From: Phaeacidiphilus oryzae TH49
GTDB lineage: Bacteria; Actinomycetota; Actinomycetes; Streptomycetales; Streptomycetaceae
Direction of reading: 5' to 3'
Length of the DNA stretch: 64,000 bases
Assembly (NCBI RefSeq): GCF_000744815.1
Contig: NZ_JQMQ01000005.1
Span: 1,186,055 to 1,250,054 of the forward strand
In this document: in pieces, positions 3,010 through 62,447 of the stretch
How the letters are laid out: each line of letters opens with the position of its first letter
Numbering within the stretch: position 1 is the stretch's first letter
Notes under the pieces: generated by a model
Databases searched by the model: none
What the model was told of the DNA's origin: nothing
The model's input: only the letters and a program-made list of their open reading frames with translations
Translations under genes and position numbers: made by a program

Positions 3010-3305
3010 CCATCGCCGGGCCCCCGGAAGGGCTGAACCACGGAGTGCCGGGCAGGCGTCATCACCAGGGGGGACCTTTCGGGGGGATGAGAATCGGGTG
3101 AGGGTGATGGGGCCTCAGAACGTCGCGGTGTACGGGTGTTGGGCCTCGTCAGGCCGTGGGGCGGGGGTGGCGTGGGGTCCTCCGGCTGACGCAAGCAGGA
3201 GTCCGATCGCGAACTCCCGCGCTACTCTTCTGAGGAACTGTCCGTGGCCGAGTACCCGGTGCCGTCGGCTGGCCGGGGCGTGGTACGTAGTCGGGTGATT
3301 CGAGC

Positions 3306-4292
3306 GTGACGGTCTTCTTGCTGGGAGTGGGCGCGGCCCTCTTCCTGGGCCTGGGTTTCGTGCTCCAGCAGCACGCGGCGCAGCGCGCTCCGCGGGCCGA
3401 CATCCTGTCCTTCCGGCTGCTCCTCGACCTGATGCGGGTGCCGGAATGGCTGCTCGGCATCCTCTTCATGGTGATCGGCCAGGTGCTCAGCGCGATGGCG
3501 CTGGCGCAGGGCCGGATCTCGCTGGTGGAACCGCTGTTGGCGACGAACCTGCTGTTCGCCATGGGCTCCGCCCGGCTGCTCACCAGACAGACCCTGGGCC
3601 GGGCCGGCTGGGGCGGCGTGCTCCTGCTGGCCGGCGGCGTGACCACGTTCATCATGGCCGGCCAGCCGCAGGGCGGCGGCGTGGAGGCGGACGCGCTGCG
3701 GCACTGGCTGGTCTTCGGGGTGGTGGCCGGCCTCGGCCTGCTGCTGGTCTCGATCGCCAAGCGGCTGCCGGTCTTCGAGGAGGCCACGCTGCTCGCCCTG
3801 GCCGCCGGGCTGCTCTACGGCCTGCAGGACGCGCTGACCCGGCTGACCAGCATCCGCTTCGACCACGGCGGCCTGGCCCTGACCGTCACCAGCTGGCAGC
3901 CGTACGCCGTGGTGGGGATCGGCGTGGTCGGGCTGGTCCTGGTGCAGAGCGCCTTCGAGTCCGCGCCGCTGAAGATGTCGCTGCCCGCGCTGACCGCGGC
4001 CCAGCCGCTGGCCGGGATCGCCTGCGGGGTCGGCTTCCTGGGCGACCGGCTGCGGGTCACCCCGGGGGCGATGGCCTGGGAGGCGATCGGGCTGCTCTGC
4101 ATCGTCCTCGGCGTGGTGGTGATCGGGCGCCATCCCGCCCTGCCGGACGCCTGCGTGCTGGAGGCGGCGAAGACCGTCGAGGGGGCGCCCTCGGCCGGCC
4201 GGGCCGTCGCCGGCGGCATCCGCCGCCCCAGCGGGGCGGTGGCCTCGCGGGCCGCGCGCCGGGAGCCGGCGCGGGCGGCCGGACGCCGCTGA
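3306..4292 (+). CDS. DMT-superfamily (EamA-like) permease
   Basis: A 328-residue protein with about nine or ten hydrophobic helices spread over residues 1-280 (for example LLGVGAALFLGLGFVLQQ and AIGLLCIVLGVVVIG), followed by a soluble Arg/Ala-rich tail of about 45 residues. The two-fold helical arrangement with short loops is typical of drug/metabolite transporter family members, including the actinobacterial DMT proteins with an FVLQQHAA first helix. Direction and substrate are unknown. The start is GTG at 3306; no strong ribosome site is visible. A hairpin follows at 4332-4362, and the TetR regulator lies 132 bp downstream. Confidence 0.75.
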   Translation: MTVFLLGVGAALFLGLGFVLQQHAAQRAPRADILSFRLLLDLMRVPEWLLGILFMVIGQVLSAMALAQGRISLVEPLLATNLLFAMGSARLLTRQTLGRAGWGGVLLLAGGVTTFIMAGQPQGGGVEADALRHWLVFGVVAGLGLLLVSIAKRLPVFEEATLLALAAGLLYGLQDALTRLTSIRFDHGGLALTVTSWQPYAVVGIGVVGLVLVQSAFESAPLKMSLPALTAAQPLAGIACGVGFLGDRLRVTPGAMAWEAIGLLCIVLGVVVIGRHPALPDACVLEAAKTVEGAPSAGRAVAGGIRRPSGAVASRAARREPARAAGRR

Positions 4293-5166: not shown

Positions 5167-6033
5167 TCAGAAGTCCTTGCGGATGTCCGCGAGGAGGTCG
5201 GGCGTGGTGTCCGGGGGCTGGCTGTCCACCGAGAGGCGCTCCATCACCTGGATGTACTGGTCCACGTCGTCCCGCTTGTCCAGGTAGAGCGCGCTGGTCA
5301 GCTGCTCGATGTAGACGACGTCGGAGACGTCCTCGTCGGGGAAGCGGAGGATGGTGAACGCCCCGCTCTCGGCCGCGTGGCCGCCGAACCGGAAGGGCAT
5401 CACCTGCACCACCACGTTGGGCAGCTCGGAGGCGTCGATCAGCTTCTGGATCTGCCCCTTCATCACCTTCGGGCCACCGACCGGGCGGCGCAGCGCGGCC
5501 TCGTCGATGATCGCCCAGAGCCGCGGGCCCGAGCCGTCCTCGAGGAGCTTCTGCCGGCGCATCCGGAGGTTGATCCGGCGGGCGACCTCCTCCTCGGCGA
5601 GCCCGGGGCGGTTGAGGTTCATGATGGCCCGCGCGTACTCCTCGGTCTGCAGCAGACCGGGGATGAACTGCACCTCGTAGGTGCGGACCAGGGACGCGGC
5701 CTCCTCCAGTCCGACGAAGGTCTGGAACCAGTTGGGCATGGCGTCGCTGAAGCTGTGCCACCAGCCCGACTTGTTCGCCTCGCGGACCAGCCCGAGGAGG
5801 GCCTCGCGCTCGTCGACATCGTCGATCCCGTAAAGACTGAGGAGGTCCGCCACGTCACGCTCCTTGAAGCTGACCCGTCCCAGTTCCATGCGGCTGATCT
5901 TCGACTCGGAAGCCCTGATCGCGTATCCCGCGTCCTCGCGGGTGATCCCCTTCGCCTCCCGGAGCCGGCGCAGCTGTGAGCCGAGGAGAATGCGGCGCAC
6001 CATCGAGCCGCTCCCCGACTGAACCGTCGTCAT
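5167..6033 (-). CDS. XRE-family DUF5753 regulator, WhiJ-like (Scr1 type)
   Basis: A 288-residue protein with an N-terminal helix-turn-helix (about residues 15-70: GSQLRRLREAKGITREDAG, then ASESKISRMELGR) and a C-terminal DUF5753 domain (about 90-275) containing WWHSFSDAMPNWFQTFVGLE and FIPGLLQTEEYARA. This architecture is that of Streptomyces WhiJ and its many paralogues, which sit beside DUF397 (BldB-like) and HATPase genes and affect development. The ATG at 6033 is chosen because GGTGGAGG lies upstream; an ATG at 6048 lacks this. The gene is divergent from the HATPase gene, and the shared promoter region is packed with GTGCAC repeats that may be its own operator. Confidence 0.88.
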   Translation of the reverse strand: MTTVQSGSGSMVRRILLGSQLRRLREAKGITREDAGYAIRASESKISRMELGRVSFKERDVADLLSLYGIDDVDEREALLGLVREANKSGWWHSFSDAMPNWFQTFVGLEEAASLVRTYEVQFIPGLLQTEEYARAIMNLNRPGLAEEEVARRINLRMRRQKLLEDGSGPRLWAIIDEAALRRPVGGPKVMKGQIQKLIDASELPNVVVQVMPFRFGGHAAESGAFTILRFPDEDVSDVVYIEQLTSALYLDKRDDVDQYIQVMERLSVDSQPPDTTPDLLADIRKDF

Positions 6034-6135
6034 CCGTCGAACCTCCACCCGAAGAAATCAGCGCACAGTCTGCCACTTTCCGGCTGCGAAGGGTGCCGGT
6101 CCGCGGATCTTCGCTGCTAGAGAGGACGGTACCGC

Positions 6136-6240
6136 GTGCACGTGCATCCGCGCGCGCAGATGCACTAACCCCACATGCACGTGAATCGGCTCTTGCATCT
6201 GATGTGTGCAGAGAGGACCATGGTGCACGTGCACATGCAC
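6136..6240. promoter_or_regulatory. GTGCACGTGCA repeat cluster in the divergent WhiJ-like/HATPase promoter
   Basis: The region holds GTGCACGTGCAT (6136-6147), GATGCAC (about 6159), CATGCACGTG (6174-6183), TTGCATC (about 6193), the perfect 12-bp palindrome GTGCACGTGCAC (6223-6234) and a further ATGCAC. The same core recurs at 7343-7375 upstream of the DUF397 gene, so the sites mark the promoters of all three module genes. A shared operator for the DUF5753 regulator is the simplest reading, by inference. Confidence 0.6.
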
Positions 6241-6332
6241 GCCCACTGGAAGCCTGGTGGCAGCTCGGAGGTGTCCCCCGGATGAGCCCCGCGGGTCCAG
6301 CGGTGTCAGCGCCCTTATGGGAGGAGCTCTTC

Positions 6333-6800
6333 ATGGGCGCGAGCCCGGCGGTGGCGGCCGACCCGGACGTGGTCAGCTGCACTCTCACCCCTCGCCACGA
6401 CTCGGTCCGGCATGCGCGTGAGTTCACCCGGAGCACCTTGCGGCGCTGGGGACTTGACGCCCTGTTCGACGACGTCGCCCTGGTGGCCTCCGAACTGGTC
6501 ACCAACGCCCTGCGCCATGGAGTCGGACTGCAGATGCCCGGCTCCGCCCCCCCGACCCCCGGAACCCTGCCGATAAGACTCAGCCTGGTCCGCCGCGAAC
6601 CGCAGGTGGTCTGCGCGGTGAGCGACCCGAGCAGCGCGGGGCCGGTCGCCCGCAAGCCGGGATGCCTGGACTTCGAGTCGGAGTCCGGACGCGGCCTGCA
6701 GCTGGTGGCCTCGTTCAGCCAGTCCTGGGGATGGCACCCCGTGGCGGCCGGCAAGGTCGTCTGGGCCCTCTTCATGGACCCTTCGCACGCCGGCGGCTGA
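6333..6800 (+). CDS. RsbW-like ATP-binding (HATPase_c) protein of the WhiJ/BldB-like module
   Basis: A 155-residue single-domain GHKL ATPase with the N-box region DDVALVASELVTNALRHG (E, N and H of the ATP-binding site) and a G2-like ESGRGLQLVASF. It resembles anti-sigma factor serine kinases, which in Streptomyces often accompany WhiJ/BldB-type genes; partner sigma or anti-anti-sigma factors are not encoded nearby. Two starts are plausible. ATG at 6333 has GGGAGGAG eight bases upstream and is preferred. ATG at 6282 has GGAGG ten bases upstream and would add 17 residues including a rare TTA codon (6315-6317). A strong bidirectional terminator follows the stop. Confidence 0.85.
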   Translation: MGASPAVAADPDVVSCTLTPRHDSVRHAREFTRSTLRRWGLDALFDDVALVASELVTNALRHGVGLQMPGSAPPTPGTLPIRLSLVRREPQVVCAVSDPSSAGPVARKPGCLDFESESGRGLQLVASFSQSWGWHPVAAGKVVWALFMDPSHAGG

Positions 6801-6814
6801 ACCGCACCGGATCT

Positions 6815-6861
6815 CCCGCCCTGCCCGACCGCGACCGAGGAGCGCGGTCGGGCAGGGCGGG
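6815..6861. terminator. Bidirectional terminator between HATPase and DUF397 genes
   Basis: Nineteen-base perfectly complementary arms (6815-6833 and 6843-6861) around a 9-nt loop, located just after the HATPase stop and in the convergent gap with the DUF397 gene. Confidence 0.8.
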
Positions 6862-6951
6862 CTTCGCCGCCGCTTCTCCTTGTTCTTGTGTCCCCGAAAT
6901 CCCGGTGTCCCCGATGCGCCACTCCGGCGCCCGCGGACGCCGCAGACGCGA

Positions 6952-6992
6952 ACGGGGCCGCCTGCGGCGGGTGGTACCGCCGGCGGCCCCGT
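6952..6992. terminator. Second hairpin in the HATPase/DUF397 convergent gap
   Basis: Perfect 11-bp arms ACGGGGCCGCC and GGCGGCCCCGT with a 19-nt loop, 42 bp past the DUF397 stop on the minus strand. It probably terminates the DUF397 transcript. No T tract is present. Confidence 0.5.
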
Positions 6993-7034
6993 CGGAGAGC
7001 GGGTTCTCGTGCTGCGATCGCTGGGGGTCCTGGA

Positions 7035-7280
7035 TCAGTCGGCCACTCCGACCAGGTGGTCGAACTCTCCGTCCTTGGCCCCGAGAAGAAGGGCGACGAT
7101 CTCGGCACGGGTGTAGACGAGTGCCGGGCCCTCGGGGAAACGGGAGTTGCGGACGGCGACGTCGCCGCCGGGAAGCCGGGCGAGCTCGACGCACTGCCCC
7201 TGCGAGTTGCTGTGCCGGCTCTTCTGCCAGGTCACGCCGGATATTTCGGCCGCTGACATGCCGTTGTACGGCTGGCGCAT
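7035..7280 (-). CDS. DUF397 (BldB-like) small protein
   Basis: An 81-residue protein with the DUF397 signature from about residue 15: WQKSRHSNSQGQCVELA, then VAVRNSRFPEGPALVYT and a C-terminal helix. DUF397 includes Streptomyces BldB and many paralogues encoded beside DUF5753 regulators. They are thought to act with those regulators in a toxin-antitoxin-like or developmental switch. The ATG at 7280 follows GGGAGAG; an upstream extension would translate promoter repeats into a Cys/Thr-rich artefact. Its promoter carries the same TGCACGTGCA repeats as the divergent promoter 1.1 kb away, supporting co-regulation with the WhiJ-like and HATPase genes. Confidence 0.88.
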   Translation of the reverse strand: MRQPYNGMSAAEISGVTWQKSRHSNSQGQCVELARLPGGDVAVRNSRFPEGPALVYTRAEIVALLLGAKDGEFDHLVGVAD

Positions 7281-7342
7281 CACTACTCTCCCTCGGGACT
7301 GGGTACCCGCCTCACAGCACGTGATGATAGCGCTTGTGCAAC

Positions 7343-7375
7343 TGCACGTGCATGCGCTTGTGCTTGTGCACGTGC
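7343..7375 (-). promoter_or_regulatory. TGCACGTGCA repeats upstream of the DUF397 gene
   Basis: TGCACGTGCATGC (7343-7355) and GTGCACGTGC (7366-7375) lie 60-95 bp upstream of the DUF397 start, with extra TTGTGC half-sites between. They match the cluster at 6136-6240 in the WhiJ-like/HATPase promoter. Confidence 0.6.
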
Positions 7376-7645
7376 TTGTACCCAGGGTGACAACTTCCAT
7401 GCGGAGCTTGGTTGTTGACGGTTCGTAAGTGGGCAAATCGGGTCGGACCGGCGACGCTCTGTGGTGGCCCTCGGGCGAGATCACGAAGGGCCGATGCGAT
7501 TCGGTCGCAAATGATCACCGGAAACGGTGGAAACGGTGACGTAGCGTCAACAGCGAAAGGCGGACGGAGCGGTGGCGGCGAGGCGAAATCGGCGGTGTGA
7601 GGCGCACCACTCCGCCGTTCGGATGTGCGCGTTCCATGATCGACA

Positions 7646-7678
7646 CATGGGCACGGCATGGGCACCGCATGGGCACGG
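7646..7678. repeat. Three 11-bp tandem repeats
   Basis: CATGGGCACGG, CATGGGCACCG and CATGGGCACGG run head to tail, followed by a partial copy. They lie about 100 bp before the CbiX-like gene. Function unknown. Confidence 0.75.
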
Positions 7679-7780
7679 CATGGTCGGCACAGCGGTTCCC
7701 GAGGTGCGGAGCGATGTCGAGGGCGCGGACCTGCCGACCGCGCGGCGGCGGACCGTGCGTATGACCTACCATCGTCCGTC

Positions 7781-8821
7781 ATGAGCTCTGCCGCCAATCC
7801 GGGCACGCCGTTGCCCGTCCGCACGCCCGGCTCCCGAGCGCGGGGGCGCCACCGCCGTCCGGAACGGCCCGAGATACCCGCGGGCGCGCCGTCACTCCTG
7901 CTCGCCATCCCGGCGCCGGCGGGACCCGAGGTCCGGGCGGTCGTCGAGGAGATCGTCTCCGTGGTCCGCGGAGAGCAGTTCGGGATCGACATCCGGGCCG
8001 GGTATCTGAGCCGGCCGGCCGCCGCGGATGGTGGCGCCGGCACCGGTGGGGGCGATCCAGTCGAGGGGGGCTCCGAGTCGGATTCTGGGGTTTCGGTCGA
8101 CGGTGAGCCGACCGCGTCGGCCGAACCGGCCGCGCCAGTCGAGGGGGCACCGGCGGTCGAGGAGTCCGCCGGGGCCGCCGAACTCGACCCGCGGGACTAC
8201 CCGCTGATCACCGAGCTGCTCGCGCAGGCGCGGGACGCCGAGCTGCCGCCGCCGATCGTGGTGCCGCTGCTGGCGGGGCCCGCGGGGGACGTCCACAACG
8301 CCGTGGAGGCCGCGCTGGCGGGCTCCGGGGCGCAGCTGGTCGACGTCCTGGGCCCGCATCCGCTGCTCGCCGAGGCCGTCCATGTGCGGCTCTCCGAGGC
8401 GGGGCTGGCCCGGGCGGACCGGGCGCGGCTCTTCACCATCAACACCGCCGCGGACGGGGTCGTGCTGGCCACCGTCGGCGGCCACGAAGGCATGCAGCAG
8501 GCCCAGTCGGTGACCGGGGTGCTGCTGGCCGCGCGGCTGGCCGTGCCGGTGCTGGCGGCCGCGCTGGACGTGCCGGGGTCGGTCGCGGCCGCGGTCGAGC
8601 AGCTGCGGGCGGCGGGGTGTGCGCGGCCGGCGCTGGCGCCGTTCCTGATCGGCCCGGAGGCTCGGCCGGGGGCACTTGAGGCCGCGGCCGAGGAGGCCGG
8701 GTGCCCGCTGGCTGCGCCGCTGGGGGCGTACCCCGGGGTCGCCCGGCTGGTGCTTGGCGCCTACCTGGGTGCCATCGGGGTGGAGATGGAGCAGCCGGCG
8801 CAGCCGGCGCCGATGGGGTAG
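7781..8821 (+). CDS. CbiX/sirohydrochlorin-chelatase-like protein, catalytic motif not conserved
   Basis: A 346-residue protein. A basic N-terminus (PGSRARGRHRRPERP) is followed by LLLAIPAPAGPEVRAVVEEI, then an acidic Ala/Glu-rich insert at about residues 85-145. A second half reads VVPLLAGPAGDVHNAV, LGPHPLLAEAVHVRLSEAGL and LATVGGHEGMQQA. The order and spacing resemble the two-lobed CbiX chelatase fold as found in a conserved Streptomyces protein often annotated as sirohydrochlorin chelatase. The metal-binding HGS motif that should follow the first strand is replaced by PAP, so chelatase activity is doubtful. The start is ATG 7781; upstream in-frame sequence is the 11-bp repeat region. It ends at a shared terminator with the export cluster. 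Confidence 0.6.
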   Translation: MSSAANPGTPLPVRTPGSRARGRHRRPERPEIPAGAPSLLLAIPAPAGPEVRAVVEEIVSVVRGEQFGIDIRAGYLSRPAAADGGAGTGGGDPVEGGSESDSGVSVDGEPTASAEPAAPVEGAPAVEESAGAAELDPRDYPLITELLAQARDAELPPPIVVPLLAGPAGDVHNAVEAALAGSGAQLVDVLGPHPLLAEAVHVRLSEAGLARADRARLFTINTAADGVVLATVGGHEGMQQAQSVTGVLLAARLAVPVLAAALDVPGSVAAAVEQLRAAGCARPALAPFLIGPEARPGALEAAAEEAGCPLAAPLGAYPGVARLVLGAYLGAIGVEMEQPAQPAPMG

Positions 8822-60236: not shown

Positions 60237-62447
60237 ATGGCGCCCACCCCGGACCCGGCGGCAGCCCTGCAGAGCTTCGCCGCGATATGGGGCCGGGCCG
60301 TGCACCCGGTCAGCCAGGCCCGTCTGGAGCCGGCTGAACTGCAGGAGCTGCTGACCGAGTTGACGAACCGGTTGCGCACCGCCCTGCACGCGCAGCCCTT
60401 CGACCCGGCCCCGGGCCGGGCGGTGGGCACCGCCCTGGTCGCCGCCGGGTACGCGGAGCCGGAGGCGCTCAACCAAAGCCTGGGCGTCCTCCACGCGTAC
60501 CTCACCCTGTACTTCCCGCCGCCCCCGGTACGGCTGAGCCCGGGCCCGAACGCCGAGGAGCTCGCCGCCCGGGCGGCCCGGCTCCAGCACGCCGTCGCGG
60601 CCGGCTTCGCGCAGGGCGTCGCCGAGCGGGCCGCCGCCGACCGGGCCGCCGCGGACGCCGCCGCCGACACCGCCCGGCAGCAGGCCGAGGAGGCCAGGCA
60701 CGCCGCCGAGGCCCGGTTCCGGGCGCTCTTCGCGGAGGCCGCCGTCGGCATCTGCGTGATCAGCCTGGACGGCCTGATCACCGAGGTCAACCCGGCCCTG
60801 GCGGGGATGTTCGGGGCGACCGTCGACCAGTTGAACGGCAGCCAGGTCACCGACCACGAGCACCCGCTGGACGGGCCGGAGGTCTGGACCCTCTACGCCG
60901 ACCTGGTCCGCGGCAAGCGCGAGCACTACCGGGTGGAGAAACCGTACTTCCGGGTCGACGGCTCGGTCTTCTGGGCCGACCAGACGGTCACCCTGATCCG
61001 CGGGGCGGACGGCTCGCCGCTCTGCCAGCTGGCCATCCTCCAGGACATCACCGAGCGCCGGATGCTCCACAAGCTCCTCCGCCACCAGGCCACCCACGAC
61101 CCGCTGACCGGGCTGCCCAACCGATCCCTCTTCCTGGAGCGGCTGGAGAACGCCCTGGACCGGGACGGCGGCGCCGAGCGGGTCGCCCTGTGCTACCTCG
61201 ACCTGGACGCCTTCAAGACCGTCAACGACAGCCTCGGGCACGACATCGGCGACCGGGTGCTGGTCGCGGTCGCCGACCGGTTCCGCCGCTGCCTCTCCGG
61301 CCCGCACCAGCTGGTGGCCCGGATGGGCGGGGACGAGTTCACCGCGCTGATCGTCGACCCGGCGGACGAGGAGGAGGCGGTCGCCCTCGCCCAGCGCTTC
61401 CTGGACGCGCTGGACGAGCCGGTGGTGATCGACGGCCAGGACCTGAAGATCACCGTGAGCGTGGGGGTGCTGGAGGGACCGGTCGCCGCCCTGGACCCGG
61501 CCAAGGCCGTGCAGGGGGCGGACCTGACCCTCTACCGGGCGAAGGCGGCCGGCGGCAACCGGTGGGCGGTCAACGACCCGGAGGCCAACGAGGTGGAGAT
61601 CCGCCGGCACACCCTGGCCACCAACCTGCCGGGGGCGCTGGAGCGCGGCGAGTTCTTCGTCGAGTACCAGCCGCTGGTCTCGCTGCCGGACGGGCGGATC
61701 CGGGCCGCCGAGGCGCTGGTCCGCTGGCGCCACCCGGAGCACGGGGTGCTGGGGCCGGACCGCTTCGTGCCGATCGCGGAGAGCACCGGGCTGATCGTCC
61801 CGCTCGGGCGGTGGGTGCTGGAGCAGGCCTGCAAGCAGGTCAAGTCCTGGCAGCTGACGCTGGACGACCCCGGGCTGCGGGTGAACGTCAACCTCTCGCC
61901 GCGGCAGACCCGCAGCCCCACCCTGCTGAAGGACGTCGTCCACGCGCTCGACGAGTCCGGTCTCGAGGCCTCCTCGCTCTGCCTGGAGGTCACCGAGAGC
62001 GCGCTGATCGGCGCGGACGGGCAGTCCCTCGCCGCGCTGCGGGACCTCGCGGCGCTCGGCATCACCCTCGCGCTGGACGACTTCGGCACCGGATACGCCA
62101 ACTTCTCGCATCTGCGCGCGATGCCGGTGCACTGCCTGAAGATCGACCGGTCCTTCGTGGACGGTCTGGCCGTCACCATCGAGCCGGACGCCGACGGCGG
62201 GGTGGACCGGCTGGACCCGGCCGACCGGATCAAGGGCGCGGGGGTGGACGCGGCGCTGGTCGCCGGCATGGTCTCGCTGGCGCGGTCGCTGGACCTGGCG
62301 GTCACCGCCGAGGGCATCGAGACCGAGGAGCAGGCCCGCCGCCTCCAGGAGCTCGGCTGCGACACCGCCCAGGGCTGGTTCTACGCGAGGCCGGGCTCCC
62401 CTGAGCAGTTCGTCCAACTGAGCCGGGAGCGCGCGCTGGCGTCGTAG
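60237..62447 (+). CDS. PAS-GGDEF-EAL cyclic-di-GMP protein (RmdA-like)
   Basis: A 736-residue soluble protein. An N-terminal helical domain is at about 10-110, a coiled coil at about 125-160, PAS at about 160-280, GGDEF at about 285-450 (HDPLTGLPNRSLFLERLENA, MGGDEF), and EAL at about 465-730 (EALVRWRHPE, NLSPRQ, LEVTESAL, LDDFGTGYANFSHL, KIDRSFV, TAEGIETEEQ). Diguanylate cyclase and phosphodiesterase motifs both look intact. The RxxD inhibitory site upstream of GGDEF is not present (GPHQ at that place). An insertion of about 25 residues after DRSFVDGL (EPDADGGVDRLDPADRIKGA) is unusual. The layout resembles Streptomyces RmdA, which tunes c-di-GMP in development. The ATG follows TGGAGAATGA. 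Confidence 0.9.
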   Translation: MAPTPDPAAALQSFAAIWGRAVHPVSQARLEPAELQELLTELTNRLRTALHAQPFDPAPGRAVGTALVAAGYAEPEALNQSLGVLHAYLTLYFPPPPVRLSPGPNAEELAARAARLQHAVAAGFAQGVAERAAADRAAADAAADTARQQAEEARHAAEARFRALFAEAAVGICVISLDGLITEVNPALAGMFGATVDQLNGSQVTDHEHPLDGPEVWTLYADLVRGKREHYRVEKPYFRVDGSVFWADQTVTLIRGADGSPLCQLAILQDITERRMLHKLLRHQATHDPLTGLPNRSLFLERLENALDRDGGAERVALCYLDLDAFKTVNDSLGHDIGDRVLVAVADRFRRCLSGPHQLVARMGGDEFTALIVDPADEEEAVALAQRFLDALDEPVVIDGQDLKITVSVGVLEGPVAALDPAKAVQGADLTLYRAKAAGGNRWAVNDPEANEVEIRRHTLATNLPGALERGEFFVEYQPLVSLPDGRIRAAEALVRWRHPEHGVLGPDRFVPIAESTGLIVPLGRWVLEQACKQVKSWQLTLDDPGLRVNVNLSPRQTRSPTLLKDVVHALDESGLEASSLCLEVTESALIGADGQSLAALRDLAALGITLALDDFGTGYANFSHLRAMPVHCLKIDRSFVDGLAVTIEPDADGGVDRLDPADRIKGAGVDAALVAGMVSLARSLDLAVTAEGIETEEQARRLQELGCDTAQGWFYARPGSPEQFVQLSRERALAS

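Follow-up and report, generated by a model that had tools for sequence, protein, structure and literature searches.

By what are the palindromic repeats read that stand in front of all three genes of a WhiJ/AbaA/BldB-type module in Phaeacidiphilus oryzae TH49? A streptomycete has more than 10, sometimes more than 20, WhiJ-type regulators, and a review of 2013 says, in its accessible parts, that nothing was known of their targets (PMC4255298). The window considered here, that is, the whole analysed stretch of 64,000 nucleotides at C5:1186055-1250054 of the 7.81 Mb host genome, contains such a module, and an initial annotation had described operator-like GTGCAC palindromes at its promoters. Judged from sequence, the repeats are a genuine, deeply conserved and module-specific predicted operator array, a new operator type inside a known regulator family. 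We consider it highly probable that the array is autoregulatory, and that it is read by the WhiJ-like XRE-DUF5753 protein of the module at its own gene, at the HATPase gene and at the DUF397 gene.

The genes had been called as XRE plus DUF5753, HATPase_c_2 and DUF397, and these calls are borne out by Pfam matches (Table 1). Thus, the locus has the composition of a three-gene WhiJ/AbaA/BldB module, in which an XRE-DUF5753 gene has HATPase_c and DUF397 neighbours, HTH_31 and DUF5753 being over the Pfam cut-offs. The HATPase gene sits between the other two, and the DUF397 gene does not adjoin the regulator gene. The regulator likely starts at ATG 6033, which is preceded by GGAGG.

Table 1. Genes of the module and elements of its predicted operator array (positions in the window)
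Feature	Position	Strand	Basis or remark
WhiJ-like regulator, XRE HTH_31 + DUF5753	5167..6033	-	Pfam HTH_31 4e-16, DUF5753 2.6e-60
Operator element I (predicted), GTGCACGTGCAT	6136..6147	.	exact core 6137-6146
Operator element II (predicted), core variant TGCACGTGAA	6174..6197	.	variant 6176-6185; TGCA 6194-6197, 18 bp from TGCA 6176
CATGGT, conserved AT[CG][AG]T box	6217..6222	-	exactly 31 bp from core II
Operator element III (predicted), GTGCACGTGCACATGCAC	6223..6240	.	exact core 6224-6233; overlapping variant 6230-6239
HATPase_c_2 protein, AbaA-like anti-sigma type	6282..6800	+	PF13581 1.6e-11 (longer ORF 5976-6800), translation
BldB-like DUF397 protein, 81 aa	7035..7280	-	PF04149 5.8e-18 (longer ORF 7035-7484), translation
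TATCAT, inferred -10 of DUF397 gene	7324..7329	-	TAT[CG]NT recurrence in relatives
DUF397 operator array (predicted)	7330..7377	-	seven 6-bp units abutting -10; exact core 7343-7352, variant 7367-7376

What is the unit of these repeats? Letters and coordinates of the initial annotation are correct, namely GTGCACGTGCA at 6136-6146 and 6223-6233, ATGCACGTGAA at 6175-6185, CTGCACGTGCA at 7342-7352 and GTGCACGTGCT at 7366-7376. Its statement that no others are visible in the window does not hold for GTGCAC: the hexamer has 16 copies there against 19.3 expected, and 12 of these are outside the interval. Being at chance level in the window, it was given up as the signal. A loose 11-mer at up to two mismatches is not over-represented in the window either (29 against 24.3 expected). 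The diagnostic unit is the 10-mer TGCACGTGCA, a perfect palindrome, and it is this 10-mer, its clustering and its phasing that are meaningful, not GTGCAC. At up to one mismatch the window has 7 matches to it where 1.78 are expected, a number which 0 of 100 shuffles reach, and 6 of the matches are in the module: the three exact copies of Table 1 and one-mismatch copies at 6176, 6230 and 7367, one more such copy being at 60385. The exact 10-mer has three sites in the 7.8 Mb host genome, all three in the module (reversed control pattern: 2), and is thus found nowhere else in the genome, where it might have been common at unrelated promoters. TGCA is densest in the window at the module as well, with 9 starts within 120 bp from 6137, while the best cluster outside the module has 4. 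In front of the DUF397 gene the units from 7371 to 7330 read GTGCAC-AAGCAC-AAGCGC-ATGCAC-GTGCAG-TTGCAC-AAGCGC, contiguous and running directly into TATCAT at 7329-7324. Operator-like repeats are therefore real and placed at the module promoters; what had to be replaced is their unit, which is TGCACGTGCA with TGCA mainly on a 6-bp grid.

Is the 10-mer, hereafter the core, kept with the module in relatives? Relatives were selected by the regulator protein alone, the best 80 of 117 being taken at one step and loci for the best matches at another, and a further 29 orthologs (L129-L157) and 20 paralogs (L211-L230), from which genus g6 is absent, were hand-picked from protein matches; L158-L174 (motif-picked or paralogs) and L205-L210 were excluded from the palindrome, partner-linkage and helix counts. 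With a cut-off of 200 bits for the regulator there were 123 loci, of which 90 remained for the palindrome count once near-identical promoters had been removed; the same procedure gave 108 loci for partner linkage and 77 for the helix. If up to 350 bp before each regulator, HATPase and DUF397 gene at the 90 loci are taken as promoters, the core has 130 copies in the resulting 62 kb; 59 control palindromes, equally 10 bp long and matched in composition, have 7 copies there in total and 4 at best. In the 623 kb of locus sequence left over, the core has 4 copies and the control palindromes have 67 in total, 18 at best. That the repeats come from chance or low complexity, for which one could say that GTGCAC by itself is at chance level in the window, is hardly credible at all, being refuted by this conservation and by the control palindromes (130 against 7 in 62 kb).

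Presence of the core depends on the company of the regulator gene. Where a regulator of at least 330 bits has a DUF397 or HATPase neighbour, the core is found at 67 of 72 non-redundant loci, and the other five bear the variant TGCAAGNAC; lone regulators of the same strength have it at 0 of 17 loci. Among weaker relatives (200-330 bits, including L072, whose regulator frame is broken) it is found at one of 12 partner-linked loci and at none of 7 lone ones. The core travels with module genes through rearrangements in Embleya, Paractinoplanes, Streptomonospora and Glycomyces, and it also reaches the modules of Paractinoplanes, Streptomonospora, Frankia and Catenulispora. Embleya-type loci with changed gene order (L029, L030, L151, L152) have sites before the HATPase and DUF397 genes and none before the regulator gene, while Paractinoplanes, in which no linked HATPase match is seen, has them before the regulator and DUF397 genes. 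In Streptomonospora/Nocardiopsis (L044, L051, L056, L057) the sites stand before the HATPase and DUF397 genes, and in Glycomyces, Kibdelosporangium and a Micromonosporaceae MAG before the DUF397 gene. Frankia and Catenulispora have a lone copy of the regulator without core in the stretch examined and a second, DUF397-linked copy with core, in all six genomes tested; these represent six of the nine lone loci, five from Frankia and one from Catenulispora, and L046, L048 and L063 stand outside the test. An unlinked target, served in trans, was considered for these genera and dropped, as a second regulator copy adjoins each distant core-bearing DUF397 gene. Since the switch has kept such a tag in numerous soil-bacterial families, TGCACGTGCA is very probably the landing site of the module's own control protein.

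The word itself is not favoured by these genomes. In 11 other genomes of the family there are 3 to 28 core sites each, below the reversed control in all 11; therefore TGCACGTGCA is not enriched as such, and it is its placement that is special. A looser pattern that asked for the core and a TGCA 7-30 bp away was discarded: it matched in 296 of 297 genomes of the family, and the reversed control matched in many of these too. Extra sites of the form TGCACGTGCATC[GC]GG (G054, G078, G093, G114) were also set aside, and two of them, L165 (G078) and L167 (G114), are without a module gene. The extra site of L165 is near the 3' end of a long ORF, 3028-4041, which we take to be kinase-like. ORF 4138-5007 of L165 resembles by eye ORF 7658-8821, which lies beside the DUF397 gene in our window, has no Pfam match and is presumably sirohydrochlorin-chelatase-like. 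As another side observation, in L169 (G014:C1:5283500-5292500) three core sites fall inside about 2 kb, and the stretch encodes a diverged regulator with the helix SESKISRMELGRV; at E 1e-85 the genome G014 has no regulator match.

Which protein, then, reads the array? For 77 non-redundant loci at which a partner gene is linked and the regulator reaches 280 bits or more, the recognition helix was compared with the form of the operator. An S[EGD]SKISR helix is accompanied by TGCACGTGCA in 60 of 61 loci and by TGCAAGNAC in none of them, the sole exception, L080, having neither. A SHAKISR helix is accompanied by TGCAAGNAC in all 15 loci, as is SPAKISR in its one locus; 7 of the 15 SHAKISR loci have the exact core too, and the core is therefore not private to one clade. 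The SHAKISR group takes in Nocardia, Haloechinothrix and Actinophytocola, whose DUF397 promoters carry TGCANNTGCAAGAACGTT-type arrays, and also clade-2 paralogs in Streptomycetaceae that show 12-bp repeats. Among the latter is the second module of our host (L007, C5:757445-758641), which has 12-bp TGCAAG repeats at its HATPase/DUF397 promoter and a regulator 59% identical to that of the first. As the exact core is found in 8 of 11 clade-2 loci with a DUF397 match, cross-talk between the two kinds of module appears possible. As far as their promoters were read, the three remaining DUF5753 loci of the host genome lack an array of this kind, so that it is not the operator of the whole DUF5753 family. 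At paralogous DUF397/DUF5753 loci the motif occurs, in exact or related form, at clade-2 DUF397/HATPase promoters; of the four other DUF5753 loci of the host genome, the nearest paralog alone has a comparable array in the promoter sequence inspected.

It is to be noted that these statistics on helix and operator ignore kinship. The two helix types largely correspond to two clades, so that the loci are not independent, and common descent could be the whole reason for the agreement. With this reservation on kinship, the helix type agrees with the operator form, and the module's own regulator is therefore the likeliest reader. Another transcription factor, foreign to the module, might be supposed to read the motif instead, as palindromes of the CACGTG type are readable by other proteins and common descent could be all that lies behind the agreement. 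We regard this as improbable, for all three genomic sites are in the module, the form of the motif shifts with the helix type of the regulator, and the motif is missing at lone regulators. The DUF397 protein is an unlikely reader as well, because BldB was found not to bind DNA, according to the accessible text on WhiJ9 (PMC10294661). The operator reading of the initial annotation thus gains support from a predicted site which is specific in the genome, recurs at orthologous modules and follows the recognition helix in its form.

A known system with which the module can be compared is WhiJ9 of Streptomyces venezuelae, whose operator consists of CGNNCTCAAC direct repeats in the iosA-whiJ9 intergenic region; as far as the accessible parts of the paper go, full binding needs more than one repeat (PMC10294661). 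Both systems have a WhiJ-family XRE gene, repeats in a divergent promoter and a bldB-type gene nearby. The target of WhiJ9 is iosA, while our module has an AbaA-like HATPase gene (PMC10294661, accessible parts). The array described here also differs from the WhiJ9 operator, as known from those parts, in having a perfect palindrome, in its mainly 6-bp grid and in being present at the DUF397 promoter too. The WhiJ9 repeat at up to one mismatch has no match in 6034-6281 or 7281-7400. An attempt to derive the period of WhiJ9-type repeats was abandoned: a triple CTCAAC matched in 88 of 297 genomes, and 12 loci inspected were without a module gene.

How are the half-sites arranged? Distances between TGCA were counted in 121 promoter stretches of 56 loci chosen as core-bearing, and the counts describe such loci. 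They peak at 6 (180), 12 (110), 18 (113), 24 (51), 30 (34) and 36 (26) bp, of which the peak at 6 bp is partly built into the core and those from 12 to 36 are not. The grid is imperfect, as there is a weaker series offset by 3, at 15 (9), 21 (27), 27 (22), 33 (16) and 39 (42) bp; eight other palindromic tetramers have no comparable series among the five commonest spacings of each. In the divergent promoter of the window, TGCA at 6176, 6194, 6224, 6230 and 6236 (elements II and III) keep to one register of 6 bp; a second register, shifted by 3 bp, holds TGCA at 6137, 6143 and 6161, and the TGCA at 6207 belongs to neither.

A second component lies at a fixed distance. Of 61 loci chosen as core-bearing, 50 have an AT[CG][AG]T box at a distance of exactly 31 bp to a core, which was allowed up to one mismatch; for the other gaps between 10 and 61 bp the mean is 1.5 loci and the maximum 9. 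The core, the gap of 31 bp, the box and the HATPase gene follow in this order in 36 of the 61 loci; before the DUF397 gene the order is core-box-gene in 15 loci and box-core-gene in 9. Simple repression does not account for such a fixed 31-bp spacing in both gene orientations. We can offer, tentatively, a device of two parts that would work independently of direction, in which phased TGCA hexamers around TGCACGTGCA are combined with the AT[CG][AG]T box at exactly 31 bp, and a complex of the WhiJ-like and DUF397 proteins might polymerise there or reach the promoter box, the unit lying upstream at some promoters and downstream at others. A helix-to-operator code might then separate the modules of one cell or let them cross-talk, as the core in 7 of 15 SHAKISR loci would allow.

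Does the regulator act through this array as a repressor or as an activator? A TAT[CG]NT hexamer, which we take as the -10 box of the DUF397 gene, is found within 330 bp upstream of it in 49 of 56 core-bearing loci, a figure without a chance control. The core starts upstream of this box by 23 bp in the window, by 40-41 bp in Streptomyces (L036, L047; TATGAT) and by 39-53 bp in genus g9. It starts 37 bp downstream of TATCAT in Embleya, Paractinoplanes and the MAG locus L054, and 25 bp downstream of TATCCT in Streptomonospora/Nocardiopsis, where a partial site is present upstream as well. The array could be an activator site, from which the free WhiJ-like protein turns on the HATPase gene, as WhiJ9 does for iosA, under restraint by the DUF397 protein: in the accessible text on WhiJ9 the activation of iosA on loss of BldB requires WhiJ9 (PMC10294661), the core precedes the box and the HATPase gene in the 36 loci mentioned, and a core 40-41 bp upstream of TATGAT in the two Streptomyces loci would suit it. 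We rather doubt this possibility in view of the cores downstream of the presumed -10 boxes, a position from which activation of the classical kind would not be expected.

Repression by the module's own regulator is favoured over activation, because the site occurs on either side of the presumed DUF397 -10. The HTH of the regulator would read TGCACGTGCA and the nearby TGCA half-sites, mainly on the 6-bp grid, and several dimers would probably sit side by side along it. Acting both at the divergent regulator/HATPase promoter and at the DUF397 promoter 1.1 kb off, the protein would tie the three genes into one feedback circuit, in which it would repress the DUF397 gene and its own. At the HATPase promoter either sign is possible, because WhiJ9, as described in the accessible text, activates iosA and mildly represses itself (PMC10294661). 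The DUF397 protein would modulate the regulator by analogy with BldB and WhiJ9, and the controlled product would be an anti-sigma-type HATPase whose translation would depend on the bldA tRNA via a TTA codon.

The TTA codon is at position 12 of the HATPase gene in the window. It is present in 45 of 64 Streptomycetaceae-type copies of this gene and in none of 6 others; two copies have it at positions 15 and 42, the rest at 12 or 16. It is found in 0 of 85 regulator genes and 0 of 82 DUF397 genes (copies not de-duplicated). The circuit would thus be tied to bldA in the gene it probably controls. In the accessible parts of a review, TTA is nearly always present in the AbaA-like neighbour of the WhiJ-like gene (SCO3421/SCO3423) in Streptomycineae and not in other groups (PMC4255298), and 45 of 64 is less complete than that. 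A WhiJ-like gene of the SCO3421-SCO3423-SCO3424 type is present in nearly all complex actinomycetes, according to the same parts (PMC4255298). We infer identity of our module with this set of S. coelicolor from shared traits, and the accessible parts of two papers name no operator there (PMC4255298, PMC6767563). The sigma-E site assigned to SCO3424 in the accessible text of one of them (PMC6767563) leaves at least 8 mismatches in 29 at every locus tried.

XRE-DUF397 pairs have also been predicted as toxin-antitoxin systems, as stated in the accessible parts of two papers (PMC7159879, PMC6262351), so that an HTH antitoxin and a DUF397 toxin could be imagined to autoregulate as a type II pair via the site. 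For our module we hold this to be very unlikely: the HATPase gene bears the predicted operator too, and the DUF397 gene is apart from the regulator gene, behind the HATPase gene. Moreover, Scr1/Scr2 (SCO4441/4442) of S. lividans, likewise an XRE-DUF397 pair, did not act as a toxin-antitoxin system when tested, according to the accessible text (PMC6262351). In the same text Cpb1 of S. lividans is said to bind the chiA promoter, and the operator sequence is not given there (PMC6262351).

Has this operator been described before? The literature searched on DUF397/DUF5753, WhiJ, BldB/AbaA and SCO3421-3424, from accessible sources, with subscription papers mostly outside the search, gave no account of a TGCACGTGCA operator. 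When the letters of the motif were searched, no title on actinobacterial regulation appeared among the matches listed. A paper on fourteen XRE-DUF397 pairs (PMC10364602) does not use the terms motif, binding site, palindrome, inverted repeat, operator or EMSA, and in the accessible literature no mapped WhiJ-type operator sequence was found besides that of WhiJ9 (PMC10294661). The array would thus be a second, widely conserved predicted operator for WhiJ-type regulators after that of WhiJ9, and it belongs to a module which looks like one of the most widespread of the WhiJ type. It offers a candidate helix-to-DNA rule, S[EGD]SKISR versus SHAKISR, and usable probes of 40-120 bp.

Finally, what kind of protein is the regulator? 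Its AlphaFold model has a mean pLDDT of 90.6 and includes the XRE HTH. Against PDB chains it has no match by sequence at E 0.01, and the model has none by Foldseek at E 0.001 or better. In the model, 120-150 residues of the DUF5753 part (which spans residues about 100-290) can be aligned with proteins of the phospholipase D/Nuc type, for instance 7clg (Z 10.8, rmsd 3.1, 145 aligned), 4rct (Z 10.2, rmsd 4.3, 146) and 1byr (Z 9.3, rmsd 3.3, 129). A fold shared with these proteins is suggested and not put more firmly, because a background of 7-8 is usual and the Z-scores exceed it by a small margin. Literature joining DUF5753 with phospholipase D was not found. The archaeal regulator TrmBL2 (5box) aligns in a similar way (Z 9.4, rmsd 3.2, 123 aligned), and TrmB has a PLD-like sensor domain. 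It is possible that DUF5753, as modelled, is a degenerate PLD-like sensor domain.
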